Source: a virus. Taken from it: DNA of 44,564 nt. This document shows, one piece after another, positions 8,024 to 30,989 of the stretch (position 1 is the first letter of the stretch; every line of letters begins with the position of its first letter). A program made the position numbers and the translations under genes. The notes below the pieces were generated by a model, which searched no databases, had not been told where the DNA came from, and saw only the letters and a list, made by a program, of their open reading frames with translations. Location: the IMG/VR virus record IMGVR_UViG_3300030090_004789, positions 1-44,564 of that record. The stretch is one strand, 5' to 3'.

Positions 8024-8153
8024 TCTTCTTCCTATGTTTCTTTTTTAGCGAGGCAGCACAGACAGCATAGGAATTAACCGTCTGCTGTGCTGCGTTCACT
8101 TTGTCTATACATCTATCGTATTTGCCTTTAGGCACCCCCTTGGGTACAGGCAT
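8013..8153 (-). CDS. Small conserved basic phage protein (46 aa)
   Basis: This gene is short and runs from ATG at 8153-8151 to TGA at 8015-8013. It begins MPVPKGVPKGKYDRCIDKV and ends with a basic Lys/Arg tail. The opening MPVPKG followed by a single Cys, and later YAVC, is a pattern I associate with very small proteins in many phage structural operons. Their function is unknown. The start overlaps the upstream stop as TAATG, and the end overlaps the downstream gene by 11 bases, so it is tightly embedded in the operon. Coding is supported by context rather than by an enzymatic motif. Confidence 0.65.
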   Translation of the reverse strand: MPVPKGVPKGKYDRCIDKVNAAQQTVNSYAVCAASLKKKHRKKNGD

Positions 8154-8500
8154 TATACAGCCCTTTCACCTCGTCTGTAGCCGACAAAAATTCCGGTAAC
8201 AGTCCCTTCTTTATCCAGGTTAAGTCTCAAACTCGTATTGGAGTCGGAAGCTCTTAGACCTCTTTCCCCAAGACTGAACTGTTCAAAACCGCCTGTAGCA
8301 CGGACCATAAACCGGAAGATACTTGCAGAACCTTCCATTACGTCTATGGTAGCGCTCTCGGTAGCGTTACTCCAAGCTATGAATCCCTTGGTTAGAAACC
8401 ACTTAGTTGAAGCAGCCGAAGCAAAAATCTGTACAGAGCCAGTAGCAGTTATACTGACTCTTGTACTTAGGGGTGCGCCTCTGTTGGCTTCCCCAGACAT
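8153..8500 (-). CDS. Small beta-rich virion protein, decoration-like
   Basis: 115 residues, predicted beta-rich with alternating Ser, Thr and hydrophobic residues and no charged coiled-coil. It is one of three consecutive small beta proteins just downstream of the major capsid gene. Such proteins in tailed phages are commonly capsid decoration or head-fibre proteins. The segment FIAWSNATES resembles the FIAWGN ending of the neighbouring gene, hinting at a shared fold. ATG at 8500; spacing to the upstream gene is zero. No homolog is recognised by name. Confidence 0.6.
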   Translation of the reverse strand: MSGEANRGAPLSTRVSITATGSVQIFASAASTKWFLTKGFIAWSNATESATIDVMEGSASIFRFMVRATGGFEQFSLGERGLRASDSNTSLRLNLDKEGTVTGIFVGYRRGERAV

Positions 8501-8848
8501 TTAATTACCCCACGCTATAAACGGCAATGCTGTCCAGCTACCTATCTGGGTTTGACTAGGTATTTCTCCCAACAGTTGCGCTGTTGAGGTTGCTGAACCA
8601 ATATTTCCCCTTATTACCACCACTTCGCTTGCAGGTCGGTATTCAAATATAAACCCGGAAGCCGGAGGTATCATTACACCACTCACATTCCTGAAGCCAG
8701 AAAAGGTAAGCGTAATGCCACCCGGAGTAGCCGGATAAGTAGTTTGAAAAGCCAAAGACCCAAAAGCAAACTTGGTGTCCCTTGCAGCGTGGGAATTAAC
8801 GTTTAAATTGTTCTGGAGTCTTGCTGCATATGTTACTGTAACAGCCAT
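8501..8848 (-). CDS. Small beta-rich virion protein, decoration-like
   Basis: 115 residues, the same length as its downstream neighbour, with Gly, Ser, Thr and aromatic residues in a beta pattern. It ends in LPFIAWGN. A GGAGT ribosome site lies about seven bases before the ATG at 8848. Position between the capsid and adaptor genes suggests a head decoration or head-completion role. The shared length and the related FIAW-N motif suggest that this and the next gene could be diverged paralogs, which only alignment can settle. Confidence 0.6.
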   Translation of the reverse strand: MAVTVTYAARLQNNLNVNSHAARDTKFAFGSLAFQTTYPATPGGITLTFSGFRNVSGVMIPPASGFIFEYRPASEVVVIRGNIGSATSTAQLLGEIPSQTQIGSWTALPFIAWGN

Positions 8849-8858
8849 ATTATTACTC

Positions 8859-9329
8859 CTATGTTATTCCGCAAACTTTGCGACCTAATAAAAACAAATC
8901 GTGGGAAGTTGAAGCACTTGCCGAGGTTCTGCATACTGCAAAATCCGCAACATAAGCCGTGTCAGAAGCTCCTGAACCAACTATTGTAGCATCCTTCCAT
9001 TGAAAGGTCATACCTGCGGTTCCAGTAGTGCTTGTTGTTGTTACAGAATCTGCATTACCTCCAACTTGCAACCACCCGAATGTTCCTGAAGCAACAGCGT
9101 CATCAGGTACGCCAATATAATAATTCCCATGAGCAGCAGCAGTTTCTGAACCAAATCCACTGTCGGCTACCGCAAGGGTTAGTAACCCGCTTGCTCCACC
9201 TCTAATGGCATAGATAGTACCTGCCGTTAAGTCTCCATGAGCTTTTGCCTTTAACCATGTTTTCCCGTTTGAGTCAACACGAGGCATTATGGTTCCGCCA
9301 AAGGAACCTCTTTCAGTATTAAAAGCCAC
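8859..9329 (-). CDS. Capsid decoration/stabilising-like protein
   Basis: 156 residues starting with GTG at 9329 behind an AGGAG site. It is Gly/Ala/Ser/Thr-rich throughout, with a Thr/Ser run (TTTSTTGTAG) and a Ser/Ala run (TSASASTSHD). It sits 10 bases after the major capsid gene, the usual place of a decoration or head-stabilising protein. The Ser/Thr-rich exposed segments make it a possible acceptor for the glycosylation genes elsewhere in the genome; that idea is speculative. Confidence 0.6.
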   Translation of the reverse strand: MAFNTERGSFGGTIMPRVDSNGKTWLKAKAHGDLTAGTIYAIRGGASGLLTLAVADSGFGSETAAAHGNYYIGVPDDAVASGTFGWLQVGGNADSVTTTSTTGTAGMTFQWKDATIVGSGASDTAYVADFAVCRTSASASTSHDLFLLGRKVCGIT

Positions 9330-9339: not shown

Positions 9340-10305
9340 CTAGTTTGTGTAATCGAGAGCAGTATACTTAAAGTTTACTTTTCTCATCTTACATACAATA
9401 TTGCCAGCCCACGAAACCGCTTTAGCCATCGCATTGATGTATCCAGCTTGAAACAGTTCCTTCCACGGAGTTGTCTTGAAGTCATAGTCAGGATGACATC
9501 TGAATTCAAAGTATTTGCAACATAGTCCGTACATGTAAGTACCACTACCAGCGGTGCTTGCATCGAGAGCGTAATCACCAACGATAGGTATACCGTGGAA
9601 TTTAACCGTGGTAAAACCAGCGTCAGCCATCATGGTATCCTCGAACCTTTCCTGGGGTTGAATCAAAGACTCAGCCTTGTTGTAAAGGTCTCTGGAAGTA
9701 ACAATCAAATCAGGTTTATCAGGACCGAAGGTCGCTAAATTAATCTGATGTGATAGTGAATTGGAGTCACCATAAAGATATAATTCAGTAGCTGAAGTAT
9801 TCTCTATAGCAGCCCATTCAGAGGCATCTGCAACAGCTATTCCTGCATAACTGTCCCCTGCGTCAACGATCTCGTCCAAACCACTGAAAGCCTTGGAAGA
9901 CTGGGTAGTATTGTAGAGGTCTGCCTGGAACTTGTTAAACATGTCCTGCTGAAGTTCGTCCGTTTTCTCTCGAAGGAGGTTGATAATCTGTGGTTTACCA
10001 GTGTTTTTAACACGTTCATCCCACGAAATCATCGCATCTGCTACAGTAAATTTGTAGTCAAGAACACCACCGGTTCGGGTTTCTTTCTGTCCGAACTCAA
10101 TCTGTTCTCTTGGGTTTACGTTGATTGCTGAATCCAAAGTATTATATCGGATAGCAAATTGTATTTGTGTACCACCGTCCCAGCGTACTTTCTTCTCTTG
10201 TTTCAGTTTATAAAACAGCGGTGATTTCTCGTACACCTGCTGAGTGATGGTTTTGTCGTAAAATTTATCCGAGACGGTATTAGCCTCGTCAATTCCTAAT
10301 GCCAC
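9340..10305 (-). CDS. Major capsid protein (HK97-fold type)
   Basis: 321 residues with a GTG start behind GGGG. The order of features fits the major capsid proteins of podovirus-like phages: a helical N-terminal arm (SDKFYDKTITQQVYEKSPLF), a long spine-helix region (about residues 105-130, LLREKTDELQQDMFNKFQ), then LIVTSRDLYNKAESL and a beta-rich C-terminus ending in a KVNFKYTALDY segment. It directly follows the scaffold gene and precedes three small beta proteins. It should form the icosahedral shell. Assignment rests on size, order and the DLIVTSRDLY pattern seen in many such capsids. Confidence 0.85.
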   Translation of the reverse strand: MALGIDEANTVSDKFYDKTITQQVYEKSPLFYKLKQEKKVRWDGGTQIQFAIRYNTLDSAINVNPREQIEFGQKETRTGGVLDYKFTVADAMISWDERVKNTGKPQIINLLREKTDELQQDMFNKFQADLYNTTQSSKAFSGLDEIVDAGDSYAGIAVADASEWAAIENTSATELYLYGDSNSLSHQINLATFGPDKPDLIVTSRDLYNKAESLIQPQERFEDTMMADAGFTTVKFHGIPIVGDYALDASTAGSGTYMYGLCCKYFEFRCHPDYDFKTTPWKELFQAGYINAMAKAVSWAGNIVCKMRKVNFKYTALDYTN

Positions 10306-11130: not shown

Positions 11131-11565
11131 CTACCTCCGTAGTAGTGATGATAAATCTTGAGGTGCTGGTTGCGCTGCTCTCCCTGGAGTCGCTCCTGCA
11201 CCTGCCGGTCTTTGTCCCATAGGACTTTGTCCCATTGGTCTTTGTGGAGCCGGTCTTCCACCTGACATTCCTGCCATACTTTGCATCTTTCCTTGCGGAG
11301 ATGCATTTTGTGCTAATTTAGTTAACTGAGTAACTGGTCCGTCTACATCTACACCATAACTCTGTAAAAACTGACGTATGGTTGTATCTGGTCCCACTCC
11401 TCTTCCCTGACTTTGCCGAAACATCATGTCTGTGGGGTTTAAAGGAGATTCAGTCGCTCTTGTTGCCGACTGCATTCCTGACCCTCCAGGTGAAGGCATC
11501 TGAGTTCTCCCCATAGGAGAAGCACCCCCTGGTGAAGGCATTGGTCTACGCATTGGGTCTGACAT
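11131..11565 (-). CDS. Low-complexity Met/Pro/Gly-rich protein
   Basis: 144 residues, mostly disordered: Met, Pro, Gly, Gln and Ser dominate both ends (SPGGASPMGRTQMPSPGG, then RPMGQSPMGQRPAG). A short ordered part near residues 55-85 reads TTIRQFLQSYGVDVDGPVTQLTKLA. The gene overlaps the end of the portal gene by 20 bases and precedes the scaffold gene. Small unknown proteins are common between portal and scaffold. A role in portal or scaffold assembly is plausible but unproven. Confidence 0.65.
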   Translation of the reverse strand: MSDPMRRPMPSPGGASPMGRTQMPSPGGSGMQSATRATESPLNPTDMMFRQSQGRGVGPDTTIRQFLQSYGVDVDGPVTQLTKLAQNASPQGKMQSMAGMSGGRPAPQRPMGQSPMGQRPAGAGATPGRAAQPAPQDLSSLLRR

Positions 11566-13438
11566 TTTCTTGTCCTCCTACGACTTCAAGCATTCCAGGT
11601 AGACCTGCTCCTGCTTGTTGCTGTTCCGATTGTTGCGGTTGTTGGTTTTCCGCATCGGCTCGTTTCTTTATTTCCTGAATAATGTTTTTATATTTAGGTA
11701 TCCTGAGTTGGTTAAGAACTGCTTCCCATATTGGAACACTGGTTGCAGGGCTGGCATTAGCCATTTCCAGTAACCTTAACAATAAGTTAGCCAGCGATTG
11801 TTTATCCATAGGTAGGGTTGAGTTGGTCTGTATTTCTAAATCGAAAGAAGCATACACGGGATCAACTTCCTGTAACCCTCCATACTTAGTAAGGAAAGCA
11901 TTGTAATCCTGTACTACCTGACTGTTTTCCTGTTCCATTTCCTGTTCTGTAGGTTGTAGAGCCTCTCTTACCCACCCAGCGTTATTGCTTACTGTGTAAT
12001 AAGATATCTCTCCGTCTTCAACTAAAGAAAAGTGTTTGGTATCTATATAGAACTGTTGCATATTGTGCAACCGCAACCATTGTAGTCTGCCTATAGAGTT
12101 TTCCAAGTTTCGTACCCTTTGGCGTGTTCTGGTATAAGCACTTTCTATAAGAGTAGAAATTTCCGTTGCTGATTGACGCTGGCTTTTTGATGTCCGTCCC
12201 TTGGTTATATCAGCCTGACCTGATGACTCTTCAATAGCTTGCATCAAAAAGTTGAGATAATTGTAGACCGTTTGGTCAAGAGGTTGCGTAGGTGCCTTTT
12301 CCAGAGGAGGTCGTGATGAGTTGGATAAGGCGTTGTAGGTGAATATGCCACCGCCACTACGCAGTTCTGTCTTTACTGTTTCTACTTCTAACCCAGCGTT
12401 ACTATCCAGTAACCAGGGAGGATCGCAGTAATATCTTTGCCACTGATCCATAAGTTGCATAGACCGATTTACTGCTTTGTTCATTTCTTCTATCTGGTCT
12501 ACTTCGCCCATTCCAAAGAATTCGTGAGGTACGAGGTAGTCATAAAGTTCTACATAAGGCGGTTTTCCGTGAGTATATACCGATGGTTTATCTTCTAATA
12601 ATACTCCTTCAGTAAAAATAACGAACCTTCCGTAAGGGTATTTTTTTCTGCTTTTCTTTTCTGCGTTTTCCTCTTTTTTCTCTACTTCGTCTCCTTTTTC
12701 GTTAACGTAGTAGTCTTCCATTTCATCGTCTTTTAACCATACTTCGTAGAGTGTTGCTGACTGAGCATCGGAATCTTCGTAGGCTTCTTTCTCTCCGGTG
12801 TCGTTCACCATCATGTGCCACTCGTCGTCAAGTGCGTCAGCTTTTACGTCTTTGCCTTTTTCGGGCCAGTTCATCCTTATGTAAGCCAAAGACCTGCGTG
12901 TTCTGGTTCCACACATAGGTGCTTTCCATAAACGGTCAAAACCACGAGCTATAAAAAAGGTTCTTGGGTCTACGTTTTCAACGATGTCTTCCTGCTCTTC
13001 CTCGTCATATAAGCACTTAACTATGCCTATCTTCATAATAAGAGCGTCCATTACCCACCGTAACACCACATCGTCCATGTCGAGTACGTCCCAGTCATAG
13101 TCAAGTTTAAGGCTAAGAGCCTCTATATACCTCTGCATATAAGGAACTCTCGCCCTGACTGACCACTGTGGCTTATTGTCGGTTAGTAAAGGAGCTATAG
13201 TACTTACTGTAGAATGCACTAAATTCAAGGCTACAGTAGAATCCGAGTTTCTTAGTTTGCCTTCTCCGTCAAGGTTCCACCACTCTCCTTTGTAACGTTT
13301 CAAGTATCGGGTCATTTCTTCACGGGTTGATTTGGTGGAATTAAAGCATCCGTCCACTTCCTGTCTAAGTTGTTTTATGTTAATGTCTGACTTCTCATCT
13401 ATGCGCCCAAGCAGTCTTTTAAGAACGTTTTCAGCCAT
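11546..13438 (-). CDS. Portal protein
   Basis: 630 residues, typical in size for podovirus portals. The sequence has the usual features: an N-terminal helical part with YKGEWWNLDGEG, a segment IAPLLTDNKPQWSVRAR, then YDYLVPHEFFGMGEVDQIEEMNKAVNRSMQLM, typical of the portal core, and a C-terminal helical crown (TEISTLIESAYTRTRQRVRNLENS) before a Gln-rich tail. It forms the dodecameric ring through which DNA enters and leaves. It is preceded by small genes and the sugar genes, and followed by scaffold and capsid. Confidence 0.85.
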   Translation of the reverse strand: MAENVLKRLLGRIDEKSDINIKQLRQEVDGCFNSTKSTREEMTRYLKRYKGEWWNLDGEGKLRNSDSTVALNLVHSTVSTIAPLLTDNKPQWSVRARVPYMQRYIEALSLKLDYDWDVLDMDDVVLRWVMDALIMKIGIVKCLYDEEEQEDIVENVDPRTFFIARGFDRLWKAPMCGTRTRRSLAYIRMNWPEKGKDVKADALDDEWHMMVNDTGEKEAYEDSDAQSATLYEVWLKDDEMEDYYVNEKGDEVEKKEENAEKKSRKKYPYGRFVIFTEGVLLEDKPSVYTHGKPPYVELYDYLVPHEFFGMGEVDQIEEMNKAVNRSMQLMDQWQRYYCDPPWLLDSNAGLEVETVKTELRSGGGIFTYNALSNSSRPPLEKAPTQPLDQTVYNYLNFLMQAIEESSGQADITKGRTSKSQRQSATEISTLIESAYTRTRQRVRNLENSIGRLQWLRLHNMQQFYIDTKHFSLVEDGEISYYTVSNNAGWVREALQPTEQEMEQENSQVVQDYNAFLTKYGGLQEVDPVYASFDLEIQTNSTLPMDKQSLANLLLRLLEMANASPATSVPIWEAVLNQLRIPKYKNIIQEIKKRADAENQQPQQSEQQQAGAGLPGMLEVVGGQENVRPNA

Positions 13439-13677
13439 TAATCTTTAATCCTTCTCGAACCAGACTCTCTTAACCACGTTTCACGTTGACCTTTAGTGTC
13501 AAAGTACTTACCTGCTCCAGGACTCCATCCTGATCTAAAATCCATTCTATATGTAGCAGGAGCATTAAACACCGTCTTCCCTTCCTTACCGCATGTAGGA
13601 CAAACGGCTTGATCTCTGCGGAGGACTAACGCCTCGTAAGCTCCGTGGTCCTTGCACTGGGCTTCCACTAAGGGCAT
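13438..13677 (-). CDS. Small zinc-ribbon protein (FmdB-like)
   Basis: 79 residues. Cys at about residue 8 and a CPTCGKEGK knuckle near residue 31 make a short zinc-ribbon like that of FmdB-type regulators. Many podoviruses carry one next to the portal gene. The C-terminus is basic (GQRETWLRESGSRRIKD). Its stop and the portal start touch at 13438. Function in phages is unknown; it may bind nucleic acid or the packaging machinery. Confidence 0.7.
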   Translation of the reverse strand: MPLVEAQCKDHGAYEALVLRRDQAVCPTCGKEGKTVFNAPATYRMDFRSGWSPGAGKYFDTKGQRETWLRESGSRRIKD

Positions 13678-13801: not shown

Positions 13802-14068
13802 TTAGTACATTCCCATTTCTTTCTTTTTCATGCCACGGGCTACTTTCCCGTAACCCATGTTTTTAGCTGATGCAGCCTTTAGGTATTGAGACGCATCATT
13901 CCCTGTAGGAGTTTTCATGTAGGTCTTAGCTATTGACCCACCAGGTTTTGTATTCATGTATTTATTTGAACTACCAGGTCCGGTTTTGGTGTTCATATAC
14001 TCGGTGTTGTGAGGGTTGCCGTATTTCTTATTCGGTGCGCTCAGATATGAAGGTGTTCCGTAAGCCAT
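13802..14068 (-). CDS. Small Tyr/Asn/Lys repeat protein
   Basis: 88 residues, low complexity, with the motif YMNTK-x-G or YMKTPTG repeated three times (near residues 24, 37 and 50), and a basic Met-rich C-terminus (RGMKKKEMGMY). It looks unfolded and basic. Its start lies 41 bases inside the end of the cytidylyltransferase gene, so it is translated from the same message. Function unknown; similar small repeat proteins occur around portal genes and may be minor head proteins. Confidence 0.55.
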   Translation of the reverse strand: MAYGTPSYLSAPNKKYGNPHNTEYMNTKTGPGSSNKYMNTKPGGSIAKTYMKTPTGNDASQYLKAASAKNMGYGKVARGMKKKEMGMY

Positions 14069-14750
14069 TGTTTAATAAACTCTCCGTAAGTTCTTTGTGG
14101 GATACTACTTCCCAATTAAACAATTTATACATCATGCGTACCCTGTCAAGGTCGGTTTGGGTGTCTACAGACCAGTCCATGAAGCTAACGTCATCTTTCT
14201 GTAAAATGACCTCGTGATCGAATAACCCTGGGTTCTCATATATAAAGGTCGTAACATGTTCTCTGCCACTATCAGTTAGCCTGTTTAACCTTAATAATGT
14301 GTCATATTGCATAACTTCTACATCTGTCCCTTTAGGGAAAGTACGGTATTGTACGTTACTACAAATATCGTGACTGCCTATAGCGGACATGGCAGATTCT
14401 ATGATTTCAGGGTCTATTAACGGACAATCGGCAGTAATTCTTATTATTACTTCAGCACCGCAAAAGTTGACTGCATGAAGGTATCTGGTTAAAACATCGT
14501 CTTCGTCACCGCTACGATGCCAGTATGACCAAATAGGTACGTTATTATAGGTACTGTCTACAAAGTCAGCTATCCTCTTATCTGGAGTAGCCACTACAAT
14601 ACAGTCTACTCCCTGAGCTAACCATGTTCGGTCAATAACCCATTGTAGCATAGTTTTCGGACCTATTGGTTTTAGCACCTTACCAGGAAGTCGTTTAGAA
14701 CCTAACCTTGCCTGTATTATAGCTGCTACTCTTGGTTCAAATTTGGGCAT
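14028..14750 (-). CDS. CMP-sugar synthetase-like cytidylyltransferase (SpsF/NeuA type)
   Basis: 240 residues. The N-terminus carries the nucleotide-binding signature IIQARLGSKRLPGKVL (residues 11-26), and RITADCPLIDP near residue 105 is the second conserved block of SpsF/KdsB/NeuA-type cytidylyltransferases. Enzymes of this group load CMP onto 2-keto sugars; in pseudaminic or legionaminic gene clusters an SpsF- or PseF-like enzyme makes the CMP-activated donor. Here it overlaps the methylase gene by 25 bases and ends a four-gene sugar set directly after terminase. The natural substrate is inferred from its neighbours, since this family also includes other specificities. Confidence 0.75.
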   Translation of the reverse strand: MPKFEPRVAAIIQARLGSKRLPGKVLKPIGPKTMLQWVIDRTWLAQGVDCIVVATPDKRIADFVDSTYNNVPIWSYWHRSGDEDDVLTRYLHAVNFCGAEVIIRITADCPLIDPEIIESAMSAIGSHDICSNVQYRTFPKGTDVEVMQYDTLLRLNRLTDSGREHVTTFIYENPGLFDHEVILQKDDVSFMDWSVDTQTDLDRVRMMYKLFNWEVVSHKELTESLLNNGLRNTFISERTE

Positions 14751-15325
14751 TCAAACAACCCCCACGTTACATCGTCCCAGCCTTCAGTATGAATGTAACC
14801 GCTGTCTATTGGTTCTAACCTTAAATCTTCGTAAAGTTCCATGTAGGGACCTGTCCATAGCATTCCTTTTTCTCCCCGATATGCTTTCTCTTCAAATTGA
14901 GGAGAACAGTACTCCATGCAAAGAACCTTATCGTTAGAACATCTAACTATTTCTTTCATAGCGCTCTTAACCTGTTTGGGATGCTGGTGAATCAATACCC
15001 CTGAAGTAAATACCAGGGAAAACTGACCGTCTGTAAAAGGAAGTTCATATATAGACCCAAACTTTACCGATGCTTTTGGACAGTTTTTTTTAGCCCTTCT
15101 TAACGAACTCTTGTTTATGTCTACTCCCCAACAGGGGACTTTTTCTGCAACATACCTTAAATTTAACCCAGCATTACAACCTGCTTCTAATACGTTATCC
15201 GGCTTCCAGTGATCCAAAAACTTATCCCACCATAGTTTCCTGTCCTCGGATTCCTGTAAGTTCCTTTTGGTGTACTTGTTACCAAACTCCCCTGCCCATA
15301 TCTTCTCTAAAGCCTTACTTCCCAT
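14726..15325 (-). CDS. Pseudaminic-acid-associated class I methyltransferase
   Basis: 199 residues. The start has IWAGEFGNKYTKRN (residues 9-22), which resembles the opening of the methylases named 'pseudaminic acid biosynthesis-associated methylase'. The SAM-binding loop is VLEAGCNAGLNLRYV (residues 45-59), followed by the acidic VDIN at 68-71 and motif IV-like FSLVFTSGVLIHQ. These proteins lie in nonulosonic acid clusters of bacteria and are thought to methylate the sugar or its acyl group. It overlaps its neighbours on both sides (19 and 25 bases), so the four sugar genes are translated together. Confidence 0.75.
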   Translation of the reverse strand: MGSKALEKIWAGEFGNKYTKRNLQESEDRKLWWDKFLDHWKPDNVLEAGCNAGLNLRYVAEKVPCWGVDINKSSLRRAKKNCPKASVKFGSIYELPFTDGQFSLVFTSGVLIHQHPKQVKSAMKEIVRCSNDKVLCMEYCSPQFEEKAYRGEKGMLWTGPYMELYEDLRLEPIDSGYIHTEGWDDVTWGLFECPNLNQE

Positions 15326-15993
15326 CCTTTCTCCTCTAAGTATTCTTTTGCCTCTTTAGGCGTACTCTGGGTAAACTGCCATAAAGCACCTGCAGCTACA
15401 CCGGATGCTCCAGCGCTTAGTGCCAAGTGCATATCTTCGTAAGTTCCACATCCGGAAGAAGCAACTATTGGCACATTAAGTTCTTTCACTGCGCTTTTAA
15501 TCGATTCTATGTCATAACCTTTAAACATACCGTCTCTTTCTACTGCCTGAATTATAACTTCTCCTATATAAGATAAGCGTTTAAACTCCCGATTCCTTGA
15601 CAATACCGCTACTACTGATTGACATCCTATAGCTTCACTTATCTCTTTGGTCAATCCTGGTATACTTAAAGCGTTAGAACCTAAAGCTATTTTATCAGCA
15701 CCGCATTCTTTTACAAGAGTAATTGCTGTTTCTTTATTGCAAATATTACCACCTACTGTTAAAGGAACAAAGTTTACCTTTGCTATTTTAGCAATAGTAT
15801 CATAATCGGGAGGTCTGTTTTCTTTTTTTGCCGTTATATCAAACACCACCATTTCATCAACCTGTCTGATATTGTGTACACTTGCTGCCTGTATAGGGTT
15901 TCCTACTACTCTCCAGCCTTCAAACTGTTTACCTTTTACCAAGTTACCACGGTCAATAAGTAAAGTAGGAATAACTCTTTTTGCTAATCCCAC
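15307..15993 (-). CDS. HisF-like ammonia-channelling subunit (WbuZ-type)
   Basis: 228 residues, a (beta/alpha)8 barrel of the HisF family: LAKRVIPTLLIDRGNLVKG at the start, LTVGGNI in the middle, and VPIVASSGCGTYED / GASGVAAGALW at the end. The two catalytic Asp of true HisF are replaced: position 12 (HisF Asp11) is Leu, and the Asp130 position in VVAVLSRNREF is also Leu. It is therefore not a histidine enzyme. WbuZ/HisF2-like proteins pass ammonia to an adjacent PseA/WbpG-like amidotransferase, which is the next gene upstream. GTG start at 15993, overlapping the previous stop as TAGTG. The HisH glutaminase partner is absent from this window. Confidence 0.8.
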   Translation of the reverse strand: MGLAKRVIPTLLIDRGNLVKGKQFEGWRVVGNPIQAASVHNIRQVDEMVVFDITAKKENRPPDYDTIAKIAKVNFVPLTVGGNICNKETAITLVKECGADKIALGSNALSIPGLTKEISEAIGCQSVVAVLSRNREFKRLSYIGEVIIQAVERDGMFKGYDIESIKSAVKELNVPIVASSGCGTYEDMHLALSAGASGVAAGALWQFTQSTPKEAKEYLEEKGWEVRL

Positions 15994-17075
15994 TATTCTT
16001 CTTTATGCTCTACTCTCGGATCTAGTATTGATCCTTTTATAATATCCCTATTGGTAAACATCTCGCATAGTTCTTTGAACCTTTCTATGCTTATATTTAA
16101 CGGTTCCAGTATTTCTTCTAAAGATTTATCCAGATACAACCAGGGAAACTTGCCGTCCCATTGCAGTGCATGTTTCTTTCCTTCTTCCCTTGTTATTATT
16201 CCTCTTCTGATGAGGGAGCAGGACATGTCGGTTGCTCTGCCAAACCCGTATTTAAGGAATTTAAAGAAGTCGTGGATACCTGTTTGGTAGTTATCGAGGT
16301 TTTCATAAGGGAAACCGCTTGACTGCACTTCTCTACTAAAATACTTGAAACCGTGGTCACGAGCTTTAATAGCGTTCTCATGTCCGTCCCACGGAAAGTA
16401 ATAACCCATAAAGACCCCTGTGATTCCAGACACTTGTTCTGGATATTGATAGAGCTGGATGTCTTCGCTGCTAAACGGAAGATCGGTGACACGAAGTCCC
16501 AGCAATCCCCCGAATTCTTCAAGCCAACTTCTATCAAGCATTCGTGAACCGTTACTTTCTTGGTTTGGTCCGCCGTATTCATTTTGTGGATTCTCCCCCC
16601 AAAGTATCAGAGGTATCTCATAATCAATAGCAACCTTAACTGGAATGGTAAAAATGGATACATGTTCTGCCCATGATATGTCACCTACAGTTTCCAAACA
16701 GAGTTTATTTAACTCTCTTCTTATTTTCAGGTTAGGCTGTATCTCTATTAAATCTACCCCAAGATTTGCTATGTTATCGAGGTTCTCCCTACCTATGCCG
16801 GATAAATGACATGTCCTGGCGTTTACCGCCAGAGGATTACCTCCCATTTCCAAGACCTTTAAAACCTGTGCATGTGAATCTTTGCCTCCACTCACTGGTA
16901 CAACACAGGTATGTTTGCCTTTAGAATTGGTTAATAACTCACGAAACTCCTCTTCTCTTTGTTTCCAGTCGATCTTACTTCTATAAGCGTAATTTATGCA
17001 AGCAGAACATAAACCGTTTTCAAACTTTAAATCAGGCTTAGTATCAGGCATGATGCAGTTTTTACAATACTTCAT
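15993..17075 (-). CDS. N-acetyl-sugar amidotransferase (PseA/WbpG family)
   Basis: 360 residues. An N-terminal zinc-binding region has Cys pairs YCKNCIMPDTKPD (about 3-15) and CSACINY (23-29). The PP-loop ATP pyrophosphatase motif SGGKDS lies at residues 62-67. This combination is the hallmark of the family that turns an N-acetyl group into an acetamidino group on sugars such as pseudaminic acid (PseA in Campylobacter) or on O-antigen uronic acids (WbpG in Pseudomonas). It needs ATP and ammonia, consistent with the HisF-like gene beside it. Its stop touches the start of that gene, and its own start overlaps the end of terminase by 4 bases. Confidence 0.85.
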   Translation of the reverse strand: MKYCKNCIMPDTKPDLKFENGLCSACINYAYRSKIDWKQREEEFRELLTNSKGKHTCVVPVSGGKDSHAQVLKVLEMGGNPLAVNARTCHLSGIGRENLDNIANLGVDLIEIQPNLKIRRELNKLCLETVGDISWAEHVSIFTIPVKVAIDYEIPLILWGENPQNEYGGPNQESNGSRMLDRSWLEEFGGLLGLRVTDLPFSSEDIQLYQYPEQVSGITGVFMGYYFPWDGHENAIKARDHGFKYFSREVQSSGFPYENLDNYQTGIHDFFKFLKYGFGRATDMSCSLIRRGIITREEGKKHALQWDGKFPWLYLDKSLEEILEPLNISIERFKELCEMFTNRDIIKGSILDPRVEHKEE

Positions 17076-18682
17076 ACAGCAAACTTATCAGTGTAAGTGT
17101 TTTTAGGCTCTTTTTTAAATAGGTTCTCTACCGTAAAAGCATCAGGTTGTCCAAATATAGGGTCTGACCAGTGTCTAAACGAGATAGAACCAGGCAGTTG
17201 AAATATCATAGCTGCCGAATCAACCAGGTCGTCTTTACCTTCATAATTAGGCGTAAGCATTTCCATTTGATCCATTAACTTTGTTAGACTGTGATATATC
17301 TTTACCTTTCCTTGTCTTAACATTGACCCCAAGGTCAAATTAATCCGTTCAAACTTACTTCCTTTAATCGATTTTAACTTTATTGACTCTATGGGTAACT
17401 TCACTTCTTTATTCTGCGCTCTTTCCCATTGTTTCTTTACCATGTCGATAATAACCTGAAGGTTAGCCATAACCCCGAACTCTATACCTATTCTGGCAAA
17501 GTTATACTTCTCGTTCTTCTCCAGTAAAATTCTGGCTATGTCGTCACCCTTTTTCTTCATTCCAAATGACTCTAAGATATATACCCTTGCTATCTTATCT
17601 ACTGCTGCTATGGTTATAGCCGTCTCATCTGAATGAGTACCTACTGTACCGGCAGGGTCAACTGTCATGTAATAGGCATACTCGCCTTTAGGCAGGGTTA
17701 CAAAGGTAGGTTGTGGTGCAGGGAATATCTTGTCTTCGTCCGGTGTGGGGTTTACCATATACTGACAGGAAAACAGATAGCTTCCCATCCTCTTCTTTAA
17801 CCTTTCCAGCATCTTTAACGTGAAGTAGTTATACACAGGTTTACCGTTCTCTACCGCAGGTCTTCTAAACACGTTATCGTAAATACCATCGTTTTCTATG
17901 CTTGAATAAAGATCAGAGTAATGGTAAGGTGTACCTGTCATTATCTCCTGTCCACCTGGTTCAAGAATAGCCTGTACATACCCATACCATTCCCTTACTT
18001 TAGCTAATCTCTCGGCGGTTCTAACTACATCATCATCTATAAGGTCATCATAATAGTGAATATCAAAGTGCTTACCTACTACTGTTGATTCTGCACCGTA
18101 AACCTCTATCTGGTTCTCCTGTACCTGTGACCCTTTTTCTCTCCATACTGTCAGTACATCAGCAGTAGACCGTACCCATGCCTGTTCTTTCTTGCCTGGT
18201 AGAGGTACTTGATCAGGGAACAGCTTCTGTATGTTGGGGTGTTGAAACAGTCTTTTAATAGATACGAGCTGGTTCTGTACCAAACCGGTGGTTACTGAAT
18301 AGAACCCTATCCTTATGTTAGGGTCTTTAAGGATATCCTGTACTATCTTTACCTTTACCCAGGCTGATTTAAGGTGACCACGGGGAACGATAATCATTTT
18401 ATCCCCCTTGGAGGACAAAGCGCTACACATCCAGCCGTGAAACTTATCGTCTAACAGATAAAACCACTTACCTCCAGGACGTTTTCTCCTTGCTTCCTTC
18501 ATGCCAAGCACTTCTGATCCAAGAAAGTACAGGTCGGTTAGACACTTCCACCTGGTCCACAACAGCATGGCTTTTTCCATCATATCCCCTGAGTTCTTCC
18601 AGAGATCGTCTACAGGAGTCTTGGGATCTAATCCTAAGTCAATCAGAATGTCTTTTAGTTTGTTTTTATCTTTTGTTGTCAT
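17072..18682 (-). CDS. terL: Terminase large subunit
   Basis: 536 residues. ATPase motifs are visible: Walker A-like PRGHLKSA (residues 100-107), Walker B region HYYDDLIDDD (about 209-218) and a coupling motif MTGTPYHYSDLY (about 248-259). The nuclease half has TVDPAGTVGTHSDETA (about 340-353), IGIEFGV, and KDDLVDSAAM near the C-terminus, giving the acidic triad of the RNase H-like fold. It cuts and pumps DNA into the procapsid. The gene starts a run of overlapping genes that passes through four sugar genes before reaching portal. No clear Shine-Dalgarno precedes the ATG. Confidence 0.93.
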   Translation of the reverse strand: MTTKDKNKLKDILIDLGLDPKTPVDDLWKNSGDMMEKAMLLWTRWKCLTDLYFLGSEVLGMKEARRKRPGGKWFYLLDDKFHGWMCSALSSKGDKMIIVPRGHLKSAWVKVKIVQDILKDPNIRIGFYSVTTGLVQNQLVSIKRLFQHPNIQKLFPDQVPLPGKKEQAWVRSTADVLTVWREKGSQVQENQIEVYGAESTVVGKHFDIHYYDDLIDDDVVRTAERLAKVREWYGYVQAILEPGGQEIMTGTPYHYSDLYSSIENDGIYDNVFRRPAVENGKPVYNYFTLKMLERLKKRMGSYLFSCQYMVNPTPDEDKIFPAPQPTFVTLPKGEYAYYMTVDPAGTVGTHSDETAITIAAVDKIARVYILESFGMKKKGDDIARILLEKNEKYNFARIGIEFGVMANLQVIIDMVKKQWERAQNKEVKLPIESIKLKSIKGSKFERINLTLGSMLRQGKVKIYHSLTKLMDQMEMLTPNYEGKDDLVDSAAMIFQLPGSISFRHWSDPIFGQPDAFTVENLFKKEPKNTYTDKFAV

Positions 18683-18790: not shown

Positions 18791-19636
18791 CTATCCTATT
18801 AAACCACTTCTGCCAAGATTACCACCATAGGGCAATGCTTCCATCGCACCAGTTAAAGTCAGGTCATGTTCAGGGTTCCATACCCTTGCTACCACGGCAA
18901 CTGAATAAACGTCACTGAGGTTCTGGTTTGACCTGTGTACCATACGTCTGTCAAATAGTAACAGATCAGTAGGGTCTGCTTCAACGTCTTCCTGAATATA
19001 GTTCTTTAAAAAGGATTCGGGTATCTCGTATTGTACAAAATGATTAGCCTTATTCTCGCTATCCTTGTTAAAACCCTTGTAATCAGCAAACGGAAAGTCC
19101 CTGTTGTGACTGTAAGCCTTGAAAGACATTGAGCCGTTCTCGTAGTTTTTTTTATTAAATACAGGAAACCATATGTTTAAAAAGTTCCTTCTCTTCGGGT
19201 AATAGTGTGCTTCTGAATGCCACTTATACAGTAGCCTGTCGGTGTGGGGACGGTTAACAAATAAAGCAGGACCGTTTACCAGCAGGTTTTCCTTAGCGCA
19301 TTTTAACTCTTGCTGGCAGGTGTCCAGAAACTTATCGTTAAATATCTTGCGTATTTGCGGTACATGGGGAAGCATGGACTGTACCTGGTACAACGCTTCC
19401 TTGTCATCCTTTTCCATCATTTCATAAATAGCACAGAACACTGCAAACGGTTCCTTGTCTTCCAACTGGTCAACCTGACTACGGTAAACGTCTATTTTCC
19501 TTGCTTGTAGTTTATAGATAGCAACTACAGCTTCCTCAAACTCCCTGATCTCTTCTTCGGTAAAGAAGCCACGGTAGTGTTTAAATCCCTGTTTATCGTC
19601 AGGGTCGTTAATCTTGGGGTATATTCTATTAGGCAT
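18791..19636 (-). CDS. Phytanoyl-CoA dioxygenase-like 2OG-Fe(II) oxygenase
   Basis: 281 residues. Iron and cosubstrate residues of the PhyH group are in place: WHSEAHYYP gives the His-x-Glu pair (H140, E142), MVHRSNQN gives the distal His (H234), and VVARVW gives the Arg (R251) that holds 2-oxoglutarate. Such enzymes hydroxylate small molecules or sugar- and lipid-linked groups and also occur in some cyanophages. The gene lies just upstream of terL and the sugar genes and overlaps the next gene upstream by 8 bases. A role in tailoring the phage-made sugar is possible; the substrate is unknown. Confidence 0.75.
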   Translation of the reverse strand: MPNRIYPKINDPDDKQGFKHYRGFFTEEEIREFEEAVVAIYKLQARKIDVYRSQVDQLEDKEPFAVFCAIYEMMEKDDKEALYQVQSMLPHVPQIRKIFNDKFLDTCQQELKCAKENLLVNGPALFVNRPHTDRLLYKWHSEAHYYPKRRNFLNIWFPVFNKKNYENGSMSFKAYSHNRDFPFADYKGFNKDSENKANHFVQYEIPESFLKNYIQEDVEADPTDLLLFDRRMVHRSNQNLSDVYSVAVVARVWNPEHDLTLTGAMEALPYGGNLGRSGLIG

Positions 19637-21887: not shown

Positions 21888-22241
21888 ATGCAACAAATAA
21901 AAGTACTGACCTATTCAAAGAAAAATTATAATTATGATACTATAAGCAGAAGTTTTACTAATAAAGCAACTTTTACAGCAGTAGTAAACCTTAATGGTAA
22001 AAGAAAACAATTAACAATTACTTCAAAAGATAAAAAGTACTTTTCCCATTTTGGTAAAGAAGACTTGAGAATTAAAACAATAAAAAAGTTGATTTCTAAA
22101 CATGAGACTTATTGGGGTATTTTTCCTAATTGGACTACTGATAATCCTGATATTACTATTAAAACTGAAGTAAAAAAGTTTAAACATTACATGAATAATA
22201 AAAACTGGAATGTAAAGTTTCATATTATAACACTAAATTAA
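21888..22241 (+). CDS. Basic hypothetical protein of the early block
   Basis: 117 residues, very rich in Lys, Asn, Thr and Ile, behind a strong GGAGG site. The pattern alternates beta strands (QQIKVLTYSKKNYNY, ATFTAVVNLNGKRKQLTITSK) with a helical part (DLRIKTIKKLISKHE). A Trp/Pro segment YWGIFPNWTTDNPDITI follows. An intrinsic terminator follows 20 bases after the stop, so this and the 51-residue gene form one short transcription unit. Base composition is noticeably more AT-rich than in the structural genes. Function unknown. Confidence 0.6.
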   Translation: MQQIKVLTYSKKNYNYDTISRSFTNKATFTAVVNLNGKRKQLTITSKDKKYFSHFGKEDLRIKTIKKLISKHETYWGIFPNWTTDNPDITIKTEVKKFKHYMNNKNWNVKFHIITLN

Positions 22242-22260
22242 TTTAATCAGTTACTAATTA

Positions 22261-22290
22261 AACCCTATCATTAACTTGATAGGGTTTTTT
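22261..22290 (+). terminator. Intrinsic terminator
   Basis: AACCCTATCA (22261-22270) pairs perfectly with TGATAGGGTT (22277-22286) across a 6-base loop, followed by T's (22285-22291). It ends the first rightward transcription unit. Confidence 0.88.
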
Positions 22291-22295
22291 TATGC

Positions 22296-22327
22296 TTGCA
22301 TAGTTATTCTATTTATGAGAATATGAT
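22296..22327 (+). promoter_or_regulatory. Candidate promoter
   Basis: TTGCAT (22296-22301) and TATGAT (22322-22327) are separated by 20 bases, longer than ideal for a sigma70-type promoter. It lies directly after the terminator and just before the ribosome site of the next gene. The surroundings are very AT-rich, so the exact -10 is uncertain. Confidence 0.35.
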
Positions 22328-22351
22328 TATATTATATTTATGGAGGCAAAT

Positions 22352-23215: not shown

Positions 23216-23230
23216 ACCTATCTGAAGATT

Positions 23231-23284
23231 CAAGTTAGTTACTTGATGAAACCCAGGATTGTTCCTGGGTAATAGGAAACTAGA
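23231..23284 (+). ncRNA. Hammerhead-like structured leader lacking stem II
   Basis: Between two plus-strand genes, TTGATGA (23243-23249) runs directly into a perfect hairpin: ACCCAGGA (23251-23258), loop TTGT, TCCTGGGT (23263-23270). This is followed by A and a strand that can pair back (AACT with AGTT, with an internal loop). The order matches the hammerhead at 24799-24851 if that element lost stem II and part of its GAAA. As it stands the catalytic core is incomplete, so this is a structured leader and at most a ribozyme relic. Confidence 0.3.
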
Positions 23285-23294
23285 GGAGTATAAA

Positions 23295-23552: not shown

Positions 23553-23576
23553 CAGAACGATAAAAGACTAGTTTAC

Positions 23577-23606
23577 TATCCCAGGTTAAATCCTGGGATA
23601 TTTTTT
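23577..23606 (+). terminator. Intrinsic terminator
   Basis: TATCCCAGG (23577-23585) pairs perfectly with CCTGGGATA (23592-23600) around a 6-base loop, followed by six T's. It closes the unit containing the Cys-rich protein and the 85-residue protein. Confidence 0.9.
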
Positions 23607-23624
23607 GCTATTTTTTGCTCAAAA

Positions 23625-27796: not shown

Positions 27797-28067
27797 TTTT
27801 AGCACTTTCTATGCGGTTATAGGCTCTCCATGCACTATGAAACAATATCTTTACATGCGACATGCAGTGCCACGAGTCCTGGTTTAGCTTGTAATCGGTA
27901 ACCATGAACCGTGCTGTCTTATCACAGCCGTTTGCTTCACAGTTATATTTGGGTGAACATCTTTTTAGACGGTAGGTGGAAGGCGAAATAGAGACTGTTG
28001 TAGAGCTTCCCTTGCCAGTATTTGCGCCATTGAAGGGTGTGGTATTCTGTTTCATAAACATCTTCAA
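27771..28067 (-). CDS. Small Cys-rich basic protein
   Basis: 98 residues at most; the first 40 overlap the acetyltransferase gene in another frame and are doubtful. The last 60 have RCSPKYNCEANGCDKTARFM and WHCMSHV, four Cys and one His that could bind zinc, then a basic helical tail (ESAKKKRRRAKQ). The true start is unclear since no good ATG lies after the overlap. It ends the leftward sugar operon. Confidence 0.45.
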   Translation of the reverse strand: MKMFMKQNTTPFNGANTGKGSSTTVSISPSTYRLKRCSPKYNCEANGCDKTARFMVTDYKLNQDSWHCMSHVKILFHSAWRAYNRIESAKKKRRRAKQ

Positions 28068-28476
28068 GTTCGTTTATCATCTTCTCCCAAAAACTAACGT
28101 TGCCGCAATAATACACCTCACCATGTACTGTTTGTAAACCCATATTTAAAAACGCTTCGTCTAACAGCATTTTAACGCAATCCCTGCCAATACCGCCTAC
28201 AAGAGGGTCTTTTATAAGTGATATCTCAGCAATCCCACTCTCCCAGATAATTCCAGTAAAACCACCACAGGCTACTAAGCCATGCAGAGTTCCAGCATCG
28301 CCTGTTTCTTCTATAATAGCAAAGAACCTGCGGCGTGAACAGTTTGCCAGGTCATCCTGAAACTTTAATTGTTCTGCATCTGACCGCATAAAGGGGGTAC
28401 GCAGGGTGTGTCTTTCTTTAATCCGCCAGTTATTTATTTGAGTGGCGTGTTTGGGTTCTAATGGTGCTAACATCAT
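27943..28476 (-). CDS. GNAT acetyltransferase (PseH-like)
   Basis: 177 residues. Start MLAPLEPKHATQINNWRIKE matches the opening of RimJ/RimL/PseH-type GNAT enzymes. The acetyl-CoA loop is in the region DPLVGGIGRDCVKMLLDEAF (about residues 92-111), and VHGEVYYCGNVSFWEKM matches the conserved V-x-x-x-N-x-x-S/A block. PseH transfers acetyl from acetyl-CoA to the 4-amino group of the UDP-sugar made by PseC, the third step to pseudaminic acid. It overlaps the NeuB/PseI-like gene by 4 bases (ATGA), in a cluster with PseC- and PseB-like genes. Confidence 0.7.
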   Translation of the reverse strand: MMLAPLEPKHATQINNWRIKERHTLRTPFMRSDAEQLKFQDDLANCSRRRFFAIIEETGDAGTLHGLVACGGFTGIIWESGIAEISLIKDPLVGGIGRDCVKMLLDEAFLNMGLQTVHGEVYYCGNVSFWEKMINELEDVYETEYHTLQWRKYWQGKLYNSLYFAFHLPSKKMFTQI

Positions 28477-29108
28477 ATCTGTTTTAGCTCCTCTGGATCT
28501 AGTGCAAAACCACCCATAGAGTCAGGGTTGGTTGGATCATTCTTCTTTAACACGAAGTGCTTCTCCCAAACGACAGGCGCTTCCTGTTTAAACAGTTCCA
28601 GACCAACCGTGTGGTCACTCACATAAACATGACCAGGGAATTTGTAATCTTCTATCTTGGCAGGGTAGGTCGGCACACAGGCAAGAGGGTAATTATACTT
28701 GGGTGGCAACCTATCCCAGTTTACTAATTCATCTCTTACATCATAAGAAACTACTATTGGTATTTTCCGAGGTACTTCACCAGCCAGCCAATACAAATCA
28801 GGACGACAGGCTATCTTCACGAAACAGGGATCATGAACCAAAAGAAAGGATAAACTGTCCAAATCAAACACGCTCGCTGTCACCTGGAATCCTTTCGACT
28901 CACCGTAGTTTTTCAAATACAAGAACACATCACGTTCAAGAGGTTTGTTCGGGGGTATGTCTTTAAACAGTTGTGTCTTAATAATGATTTCTAAATCAGG
29001 GTTTGTTTTCTTGTGTTTCAGCACTGGTTCTAAAGCATCTACGGTAGCAATAACCGCTTCAAAGTCTGGCAAACTTGCTCCTGAACCAACGTCAAATATC
29101 CACTTCAT
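28473..29108 (-). CDS. Minimal NeuB/PseI-like nonulosonate synthase
   Basis: 211 residues from the ATG at 29108, chosen because AGGAG lies seven bases before it and the preceding gene ends at 29111. Family signs in order: IIIKTQLF (the K-x-Q strand), TASVFDLDSLSFL, FVKIACRPDLYWLA (cf. F-K-I-A-S in the family), CVPTYPAKIEDY, VSDHTVGLELF (His166), and VWEKHFVLKKNDP (His184) followed by FALDPEELK. These match the PEP-condensing barrel of NeuB/PseI/LegI. The usual N-H-x-G near the start is not seen, and the C-terminal SAF domain (about 60 residues plus linker) is missing; normal members are about 340 residues. It is a reduced form that may use a separate SAF partner, or may have changed function. 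Confidence 0.75.
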   Translation of the reverse strand: MKWIFDVGSGASLPDFEAVIATVDALEPVLKHKKTNPDLEIIIKTQLFKDIPPNKPLERDVFLYLKNYGESKGFQVTASVFDLDSLSFLLVHDPCFVKIACRPDLYWLAGEVPRKIPIVVSYDVRDELVNWDRLPPKYNYPLACVPTYPAKIEDYKFPGHVYVSDHTVGLELFKQEAPVVWEKHFVLKKNDPTNPDSMGGFALDPEELKQI

Positions 29109-29110
29109 TC

Positions 29111-30061
29111 TTAGTCTCCTGTCGCCTCGTGTATGGTTTTTATCACATAGTCTTGTTCTTCTTTGGTCATTTGCGGATACAACGGGATACTTAAAGTACT
29201 TGCCCAATACGTCTCTGCATTTTGGTGTCCCCTTTCTAACGGTTCATAGTGGCGTTGTGTTCCTATCCCTTCCTTTCTTAGAAACCATGCAGCCTTAACA
29301 GGGTCGTCAAATTTACACACAGCTAAGTGGTAATTATATGTAATAGACGATATAAAATTATACAAAGGGATACCTTCATCTTCGTAACGTTTTAAAATCT
29401 TTTCTTTTAGCCACATTTCGTGTTCGACTCTATCTAACCTTGATAATCCCAAAGCCGCACTTATTTCCGACATCCTAAAGTTTAGTGAAGGGTTCTGTTC
29501 TGTGCCAAACTCTCGCATTAACTTCAGCCCTTCGTACATTTCTTTTGAATCGGTAACCACTATACCACCCTCACCTACACCCAGGTTCTTGATGGCGTGA
29601 AGACTAAAGCAGGTCATAAGAGAATTTCCTACATTGTTACTGCCGAATGCGTGGCTTGCGTCCTCTATTATGCTTCTGTAAGAAGGGACGTATCCAGCCA
29701 GGTCTACCTTGACGTTTGCGCTACGGTTAATGCCGTTGTCTTCCGTGTCAACCACCATGTAGTTATTCTTAGTCAACTGCGCCGCTCTTAGTGTGGCTTT
29801 AAATGTTATAGCAGGTATTTGCAGTATCTGTTTATTTTTAAAGGTTCTCTCGTCGTAGGTGCGGTAGGCACAATACAAGGCAGCCGTACCACTGGAAACC
29901 GCAACAGCATACGTTTTTCCCAGATATTCAGCGCAAGCCTCTTCAAACTCGTGGACTAACTTCCCCTGGGTTAGATGACTGCTGTGCAACACCTTGTTTA
30001 CCATTTTGATATCTTGATCTGTTATCTCTGAATGCTTGATTTGGGGGATTGATATATTCAC
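29111..30061 (-). CDS. DegT/DnrJ aminotransferase (PseC-like)
   Basis: 316 residues with a GTG start. SSGTAAL (56-62) holds the PLP phosphate, EDASHAFGS (133-141) has the Asp that contacts the pyridine nitrogen, and SLHAIKNLGVGEGG (153-166) has the PLP lysine (K158). This is the sugar aminotransferase fold; next to PseB it should convert the 4-keto sugar to the 4-amino sugar using glutamate, as PseC does. Members usually have about 380 residues, so this copy is trimmed. It starts 119 bases inside the end of the PseB-like gene. Confidence 0.85.
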   Translation of the reverse strand: MNISIPQIKHSEITDQDIKMVNKVLHSSHLTQGKLVHEFEEACAEYLGKTYAVAVSSGTAALYCAYRTYDERTFKNKQILQIPAITFKATLRAAQLTKNNYMVVDTEDNGINRSANVKVDLAGYVPSYRSIIEDASHAFGSNNVGNSLMTCFSLHAIKNLGVGEGGIVVTDSKEMYEGLKLMREFGTEQNPSLNFRMSEISAALGLSRLDRVEHEMWLKEKILKRYEDEGIPLYNFISSITYNYHLAVCKFDDPVKAAWFLRKEGIGTQRHYEPLERGHQNAETYWASTLSIPLYPQMTKEEQDYVIKTIHEATGD

Positions 30062-30989
30062 GAATCTCGCTCCTTGTCAGTCTGTCCTTTCTATTGTCGC
30101 TGGTGTACTCTTCGGTAACCGGCGTTCCTTTGATGTGGTAGACGATACTGTCATCATAAGAGACAGCAGGTTCTATTAAGTAATGATCCTTGTATCTTTG
30201 CGCTCTTGGTAACTCTTCTTTTGATATCAATATTTCGTGGATCTTCTCGTTAGGTTTGACTCCTATTACCGGTCTTGGCAGTCGTTGATGGACGGTAGCC
30301 GCTAAATCTACAATCTTAAACGTGGGTGAATGTCCAACTACCAGCGACCCAGGGGGATAGGTTAAGGACAACTCTACCATCTTAACCGCCTGTTTTTTGG
30401 TCATCCAGAACCTTGTCATCTCAGGATCGGTGATAGGTAACGGACTTTTCTTTTTAGCTAGATCCTGGAACAAGGGTAATACTGATCCTGTACTTCCCAT
30501 TACATTCCCATATCTCACTGCACTAAACAGAGTACTATAGTAGTTGTAATTCAAGGTAAGTGACTCTGCCAATGCCTTGGTCTTACCGTAATGGGTAGTG
30601 GGATTCACCGCTTTATCCGTACTCAGGAAAGTCATTCTTACCTTATTTTTATGACAGGCAGCTAACACGTTATGCGTTCCTGCTACATTTATACTGTAAG
30701 CCTCAGAAGGGTTATACTCGGCAGTAGCAATACTCTTTAAAGCAGCCGTGTGGATACATATATCCACTCCCTTCATCGCCATGTTTAACCGTTCTTTATC
30801 CCGAATGTCACCCATAAAACCACGCAAAGCCGTAACGTGAAAGAAGTCTCGTTTTAATTCCTCGTGTTTGTGTGGGTCTCTCGCATAGGCTATGATTCTT
30901 TTGCAGTGTTTGACTGACAGGTAATCAATTAACGCCCTGCCTAAATAACCTGTACCGCCGGTGATTAGTACTGATTTATTTTCCCACAT
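29943..30989 (-). CDS. UDP-GlcNAc 4,6-dehydratase (PseB-like)
   Basis: 348 residues. NAD-binding GGTGYLG (11-17), HTAALK (80-85), catalytic STDKAVNP (123-130) and YGKTK (134-138), then VRYGNVMGSTGSVLPLF and ITDPEMTRFWM, all typical of the inverting dehydratase PseB/FlaA1. It converts UDP-GlcNAc to the 4-keto-6-deoxy sugar with C5 inversion, the first step to pseudaminic acid. The family normally ends near YTSDN...EIREYI; here 30-odd extra residues follow, read through the start of the PseC-like gene. ATG at 30989, one base overlap with the Maf-like gene. Confidence 0.87.
   Translation of the reverse strand: MWENKSVLITGGTGYLGRALIDYLSVKHCKRIIAYARDPHKHEELKRDFFHVTALRGFMGDIRDKERLNMAMKGVDICIHTAALKSIATAEYNPSEAYSINVAGTHNVLAACHKNKVRMTFLSTDKAVNPTTHYGKTKALAESLTLNYNYYSTLFSAVRYGNVMGSTGSVLPLFQDLAKKKSPLPITDPEMTRFWMTKKQAVKMVELSLTYPPGSLVVGHSPTFKIVDLAATVHQRLPRPVIGVKPNEKIHEILISKEELPRAQRYKDHYLIEPAVSYDDSIVYHIKGTPVTEEYTSDNRKDRLTRSEIREYINPPNQAFRDNRSRYQNGKQGVAQQSSNPGEVSPRV

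Follow-up and report, generated by a model that had tools for sequence, protein, structure and literature searches.

The window analysed here is the whole of the IMG/VR virus record IMGVR_UViG_3300030090_004789, which is 44,564 bases long and was examined at full length. Between the genes for the large terminase subunit (terL) and the portal protein, it contains four sugar genes, which quite probably represent one half, tailoring and activation, of a phage pathway for a pseudaminic acid (Pse)-type nonulosonate that glycosylates the phage's own head. A second cluster of sugar genes is located at 27.9-32.3 kb, and, as judged from gene families, the window virus and dozens of similar viruses carry nearly the whole kit for a sialic-acid-like sugar. 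The strongest indication that the virion is the target is the capsid-adjacent placement of relatives of the Maf-like transferase that is encoded in this second cluster.

The four sugar genes are present as open reading frames (ORFs) on the minus strand, and the order of transcription is terL, WbuX (WbuX/PseA type), WbuZ (WbuZ/HisF type), the Pse-associated methylase, SpsF, a small ORF, a Zn-ribbon gene and the portal gene. The coordinates are shown in the table. The original prediction that four overlapping sugar genes are embedded in the packaging and head operon is borne out by the ORFs, their overlaps of 4, 1, 19 and 25 nucleotides, the family matches and the common strand from terL to portal. 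WbuX matches TIGR03573 with 270 bits (E 3.4e-80), which exceeds the cut-off of 203, and its alignment profile matches a solved N-acetyl sugar amidotransferase (PDB 8wex, E 3.6e-51). Its SGGKDS loop and CxxC..CxxC motif are invariant in the nine phage copies compared. WbuZ scores 176 bits on TIGR03572 (E 7.4e-52), which is under the cut-off of 300, yet this is its top-scoring family, and it also matches PF00977 (E 7.9e-36). The methylase scores 123.8 bits on TIGR03587 (E 9.5e-36), which exceeds the curated cut-off of 112.05, and SpsF matches CTP_transf_3 (PF02348, E 4e-29, 102 bits) and the cytidylyltransferase PDB 6oew (E 3.3e-25). The ratio of nonsynonymous to synonymous divergence (dN/dS) relative to the near-identical strain L002 is about 0.04-0.18 across all four genes, indicating purifying selection. 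The 88-residue protein encoded after SpsF has no match in a family search of the window proteins, and it shows no obvious kinship to the short ORFs located at the same place in relatives.

Comparison of related genomes, which the original prediction had proposed, reveals sugar genes between terL and portal in ten related IMG/VR contigs; the window terL is 44-51% identical to those of slot-bearing relatives. All four genes are present in L002, L006, L011, L012, L013 and L014, three genes without WbuZ are present in L048, L054 and L059 (the L059 contig begins within the slot), and WbuX is the sole sugar gene of the set in L033, where it is accompanied by other inserted genes. L011/L012 and L013/L014 are near-duplicates. 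The arrangement is not due to chance, because the same order recurs in L002, L006 and L011-L014 and, without WbuZ, in L048, L054 and L059. A terL profile search also detects sister phages with an empty site and no sugar gene (L089-L100, L102 and L103), in which terL is followed by optionally one or two small ORFs, the Zn-ribbon gene and the portal gene. The Zn-ribbon gene directly precedes the portal gene regardless of whether the slot is filled or empty.

The content of the slot has apparently been exchanged. Between L006 and L054, identity is 73% for terL and 60% for portal, and drops to only 30% for WbuX. In a WbuX tree built with FastTree, the proteins of L048 (4205-5260), L054 (6204-7274) and L059 (635-1696) form a separate clade with support of 0.99, and the other members of this clade are likewise without WbuZ. 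It appears from these comparisons that WbuX and WbuZ in the slot have been replaced by a WbuX of another lineage, which lacks the HisF partner. Such a replacement therefore argues for selection on amidotransferase activity.

The second cluster (27943-32257) encodes, on the same strand, a Maf/PseD-like transferase, PseB, PseC, a divergent synthase and PseH. PseB scores 287 bits on the TIGR03589 equivalog in the window and 344 bits in L009, both under the cut-off of 408, and this is the best-matching family in both cases. The closest solved relative of the window PseC is PDB 2fn6 (E 5.8e-24), which we take to be Helicobacter pylori PseC. Most phage PseC proteins are only about 200 residues long: the part that binds the cofactor is retained, and the sequence stops short of the small domain. 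As a separate observation, an approximately 200-residue DegT/PseC-like family (L003, L004, L009, L010, L022, L079 and others) retains the cofactor Lys/Asp motifs and is without the C-terminal domain. The synthase scores 22 bits on the PseI model, and it is homologous to the full-length phage PseI; the full-length synthase of L009 scores 386.5 bits, over the PseI cut-off of 340.25 and under the NeuB cut-off. The PseH-like protein is 27.5% identical to the L006 gene product in the equivalent position.

A WbuX profile search of IMG/VR yields 79 contigs. When co-occurrence is counted among the fetched loci with profiles built from these phage genes, the full set of eight genes (PseB, PseC, NeuB/PseI, PseH, WbuX, WbuZ, SpsF and methylase) is detected in 15 contigs and seven of them in nine more. 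The eight-gene loci usually form one cluster, in which the gene order varies. The simplest reading is that the window carries one pathway split into two clusters, because other phages carry the same genes in a single cluster. Among 21 terL-related records, PseB is detected only in G000, G004 and G014. These three are all of the slot-bearing records with a length of at least 44 kb, and they carry both clusters; the slot-empty records, two of which are 44-47 kb long, contain neither PseB nor Maf. These results uphold the original prediction that the cassette complements the cluster at 28-32 kb. No relative is found that keeps the cassette and lacks the second cluster; this comparison is incomplete, as the remaining slot-bearing contigs are partial (13-24 kb) and uninformative on the second cluster.

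A PhyH-type dioxygenase gene located upstream of terL may encode a further tailoring enzyme that catalyzes a hydroxylation step. Relatives of this protein are encoded inside Pse clusters (L043, 7186-7962; L061, 7795-8571) and score 267 bits on the profile of the window gene.

The original prediction is silent on the DUF115/Maf transferase and on the capsid adjacency of its relatives. The transferase scores 74.4 bits on PF01973 (E 1.3e-20), which exceeds the gathering score of 34.6, and 31 bits on NF050051 PseD (E 9.3e-8), which is under the cut-off of 670, its length being 422 residues as compared with 640 model positions. It matches the Maf structure PDB 5mu5 (phmmer E 2.2e-5, profile E 1.8e-17) and, by profile at about 1e-4, the cytidine monophosphate (CMP)-sialate transferase CstII. 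Its AlphaFold model is of moderate confidence (pLDDT 63, pTM 0.67), and a Foldseek search with this model returns 5mu5 first (E 1.4e-9), followed by CstII (4.9e-4) and an archaeal HPPK (1e-3). The match of the DUF115 fold to HPPK, together with the glycosylation of phage DNA with diverse glycans, as mentioned by citation in PMC12619734, would be consistent with another use of the sugar or of an intermediate, such as DNA hypermodification, a nucleotide-sugar sink or counter-defence, in which case the Maf-like proteins would have a role other than protein glycosylation. This is very unlikely, because Maf and the CMP-sialate transferases rank over HPPK by fold, Maf clearly does so by profile, and the methylase belongs to a Pse-associated family with a score over the cut-off.

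PF01973 is detected in 17 of the 46 phage records searched. One or more Maf-like genes are located directly downstream of the major capsid gene in 12 of the 17, the capsid protein belonging to PHROG 9953, the family of the window capsid protein, in ten records and to PHROG 334 in two, and directly upstream of PseB in the other five (G000, G004, G014, G040 and G041). When a capsid-type Maf is used as the query, 21 loci are obtained, and the capsid gene is located just upstream in all 20 loci with readable context. The 17-record set was fetched through WbuX, and it shares records with this transferase-first set. The enzymes might instead modify the host surface, such that a sugar made late in infection re-glycosylates flagellin, lipopolysaccharide or capsule and blocks, for example, superinfection or re-adsorption of progeny. 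Bacterial Maf proteins do glycosylate flagellin, Pse occurs in surface polysaccharides, and O-acetyltransferases of Acinetobacter baumannii phages modify capsular nonulosonates (PMC6586298). Modification of the host surface is nevertheless unlikely, because it does not predict the head-operon placement, neither of the transferase gene directly behind the major capsid gene nor of the tailoring genes between terL and portal.

Glycosylation of the virion itself is consistent with the known properties of Maf. In Campylobacter jejuni, Maf2/PseD attaches acetamidino Pse (PMC13130089). Maf-dependent glycosylation occurs in the cytoplasm ahead of export (PMC4065374), and a Maf recognises surface-exposed Ser/Thr (PMC11339370). 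Cytoplasmic action on exposed Ser/Thr therefore fits a phage that assembles in the cytoplasm. The most likely acceptor, on circumstantial grounds, is the capsid protein or the small proteins, rich in Ser/Thr, whose genes follow the capsid gene. These three proteins have no match in the family search. They are 72, 77 and 86% identical to those of L002, whereas the capsid proteins are 100% identical. This difference points to an exchange of alleles of these candidate surface proteins more than to rapid point mutation, because synonymous divergence (dS) is high. An AlphaFold model of the post-capsid protein g8859 is unusable (pLDDT 44).

Several results weigh against glycosylation of the head by a phage-encoded Pse pathway. 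The 12 and 20 capsid-linked cases are not independent, because each capsid family consists of related phages, and the window's own Maf-like gene adjoins PseB and not the capsid gene. Neither WbuX nor PseB is detected in seven more distant records with Maf behind the capsid gene (L162-L168, partial contigs of 7.7-41.5 kb), so that the linkage of Maf to capsid requires no Pse pathway; these phages may draw on host-made sugars or another donor. No acceptor sequence signature is found, and homology of the window post-capsid protein to that of other Maf phages is unsupported (hhalign probability 0.3). The window synthase is divergent and lacks the SAF domain, with one active-site glutamate replaced in the alignment if residue roles are as we presume, and the assignment of PseH is weak. 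In bacteria, the free sugar that PseI uses is released by PseG, and the ammonia for WbuX/WbuZ comes from HisH. PseG is not found by TIGR03590 in nine records or by the Glyco_tran_28_C family PF04101 in 31 records, and HisH is not found by PF00117 in nine records or by TIGR01855 in 31 records, with positive controls in each case. The hydrolysis of the uridine diphosphate (UDP)-sugar and the source of ammonia are unexplained, because the PseG fold and HisH are absent from the 31 records, only two of which (G046 and G047) contain a NeuC-type epimerase. The phage-encoded pathway is not textbook-complete, and either the missing functions are supplied by hosts or the phage route differs.

The absence of PseG and HisH, the shortened PseC and synthase and the lack of WbuZ in some relatives are features that acquired sugar genes in partial decay, with no present function, would also have. 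Decay is hardly credible, however, because the frames are open, dN/dS is low, the gene set is conserved among phages that differ in capsid and terminase type, with several types represented, and a different, intact WbuX has taken the place of WbuX, with or without WbuZ, in the slot.

In the proposed pathway, PseB, the trimmed PseC and PseH would convert UDP-N-acetylglucosamine (UDP-GlcNAc) to a UDP-diacetamido-trideoxy sugar, a hydrolase encoded outside the phage genome and providing the PseG function would release the sugar from UDP, and the NeuB/PseI-like enzyme would condense the freed sugar with phosphoenolpyruvate. SpsF would activate the product to CMP-Pse, WbuX with WbuZ would convert an N-acetyl to an acetamidino group, and the methylase, perhaps together with PhyH, would decorate the sugar further. 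In the cytoplasm, the Maf-like transferase would then attach the sugar by O-linkage to Ser/Thr residues of a head protein of the virion. The location of the genes after terL, if gene order reflects timing, would supply the sugar when the capsid is built, and the modification could benefit the phage by shielding or altering the particle surface. The interpretation in the original prediction, which tied sugar activation and decoration to virion assembly, is partly supported as a whole.

The ends of the window (positions 4-152 and 44416-44564) share 149 bp at 94.6% identity. Because of this imperfect terminal redundancy, the window is probably a near-complete genome joined from two slightly differing copies. 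A promoter and terminator scan is uninformative, because promoter-like sites are fewer than in shuffled sequences and terminator-like sites are within one to two standard deviations. Mini-PseC in GTDB genomes is found at three loci, in metagenome-assembled genomes labelled Thiobacillaceae and Sulfuricaulis (both on phage-like contigs) and Arcicella, which is too weak for a host call. An ORF at 26123-26992 on the plus strand, within a plus-strand gene block (21888-27769), reads like a C5-cytosine DNA methyltransferase.

Table. Features of the window discussed in the text; overlaps are listed by length.
Feature	Position	Strand	Family match or remark
Three small Ser/Thr-rich proteins, candidate glycan acceptors	8153..9329	-	19-22% Ser/Thr; directly downstream of the major capsid gene
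Major capsid protein	9340..10305	-	PHROG 9953, E 2.8e-39
Portal, P22-like	11546..13438	-	PF16510, E 1.8e-22; PHROG 156
Zn-ribbon small protein, portal-side edge of insertion slot	13438..13677	-	Conserved position
88-residue protein with YMNTK/YMKT repeats, between SpsF and Zn-ribbon gene	13802..14068	-	ORF
SpsF/88-residue ORF overlap	14028-14068		41 nucleotides
SpsF/KdsB-type cytidylyltransferase, candidate CMP-Pse synthetase (PseF role)	14028..14750	-	PF02348
Methylase/SpsF overlap	14726-14750		25 nucleotides
Pseudaminic-acid-biosynthesis-associated methylase	14726..15325	-	TIGR03587
WbuZ/methylase overlap	15307-15325		19 nucleotides
WbuZ/HisF2-like amidotransferase partner, GTG start	15307..15993	-	TIGR03572, PF00977
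WbuX/WbuZ overlap	15993		1 nucleotide
WbuX/PseA-type N-acetyl sugar amidotransferase (predicted acetamidino installation)	15993..17075	-	TIGR03573
terL/WbuX overlap	17072-17075		4 nucleotides
terL, large terminase subunit	17072..18682	-	PHROG 38, E 2.8e-67
PhyH-type Fe(II)/2-oxoglutarate dioxygenase, upstream of terL	18791..19636	-	PF05721, E 7.1e-11
PseH-like GNAT acetyltransferase	27943..28476	-	TIGR03585, E 0.0028; PF13302, E 0.0034 (weak)
NeuB/PseI-like synthase, divergent, barrel only	28473..29207	-	PF03102, E 6.2e-7 over C-terminal part
PseC-like aminotransferase, shortened, 316 residues	29111..30061	-	TIGR03588, E 1.3e-54
PseB, UDP-GlcNAc 4,6-dehydratase	29943..30989	-	TIGR03589, E 1.7e-85
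Maf/PseD-like (DUF115, MptE-like) glycosyltransferase, predicted CMP-nonulosonate:protein O-transferase	30989..32257	-	PF01973

The phages share with the bacterial Pse system for flagellin glycosylation (PseB-PseC-PseH-PseG-PseI-PseF and Maf; Campylobacter, Helicobacter and Aeromonas) PseB-, PseC- and PseH-like enzymes, a Pse-type synthase (PseI over the cut-off in a relative), a cytidylyltransferase, a methylase and a Maf/PseD-like transferase. Unlike that system, theirs is phage-encoded, lacks PseG and has a PseC of about 200 residues in most phages, and the transferase gene is located in the capsid operon or sugar cluster instead of a flagellar locus. The WbuX-WbuY-WbuZ (PseA-HisH-HisF) acetamidino system is similar in that the phage WbuX scores over the cut-off and a WbuZ/HisF2-like protein is encoded directly after it, but differs in that no HisH/WbuY glutaminase is detected in 31 phage records and that the second slot clade of WbuX is also without WbuZ. 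The GT42 CMP-sialic-acid transferases (CstI/CstII) resemble the Maf-like protein in profile and fold; they act on oligosaccharides, whereas the phage proteins belong to the DUF115/Maf family. In mycobacteriophages, capsid and tail-tube proteins have been observed to carry glycans (Freeman et al. 2023, as summarised in the citing articles PMC11256854 and PMC12619734), and, according to the same summaries, phage glycosyltransferases are likewise proposed to target head proteins of the phage itself. The present case differs from what these articles describe in that glycosylation is predicted from genes, the sugar is another one and its pathway is phage-encoded.

WbuX, Maf (two queries) and the methylase give no tblastn match at E 1e-5 among 50,697 GenBank phage records (INPHARED), in contrast to the 79 WbuX-bearing contigs of IMG/VR, and a megablast search of window positions 8000-30000 against INPHARED gives no match. 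Relatives of the approximately 200-residue PseC are present in Flavobacterium phage immuto, Synechococcus phage S-SCSM2R and huge phages, and NeuB relatives are present in three phage records. In the open-access literature searched, no phage Pse pathway that includes a Maf transferase is reported; preprints and most subscription journals are outside this scope, so that a prior description is possible. These results suggest that, while virion glycosylation is already known from mycobacteriophages, a sialic-acid-like sugar on a phage's own shell is unreported in the literature searched. On balance, we favour the view that widespread, previously undescribed uncultured phages combine a compact nonulosonate pathway, with an aminotransferase of about 200 residues and neither PseG nor HisH, with a capsid-operon Maf to coat their heads with sugar. 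If this is the case, phages make an acidic sialic-acid-like sugar and attach it to their own particles, an ability known from bacterial flagella. This would explain, in a concrete form that can be tested, why nonulosonate genes occur in environmental phages, and would offer compact enzymes and a possible tool for protein sialylation.

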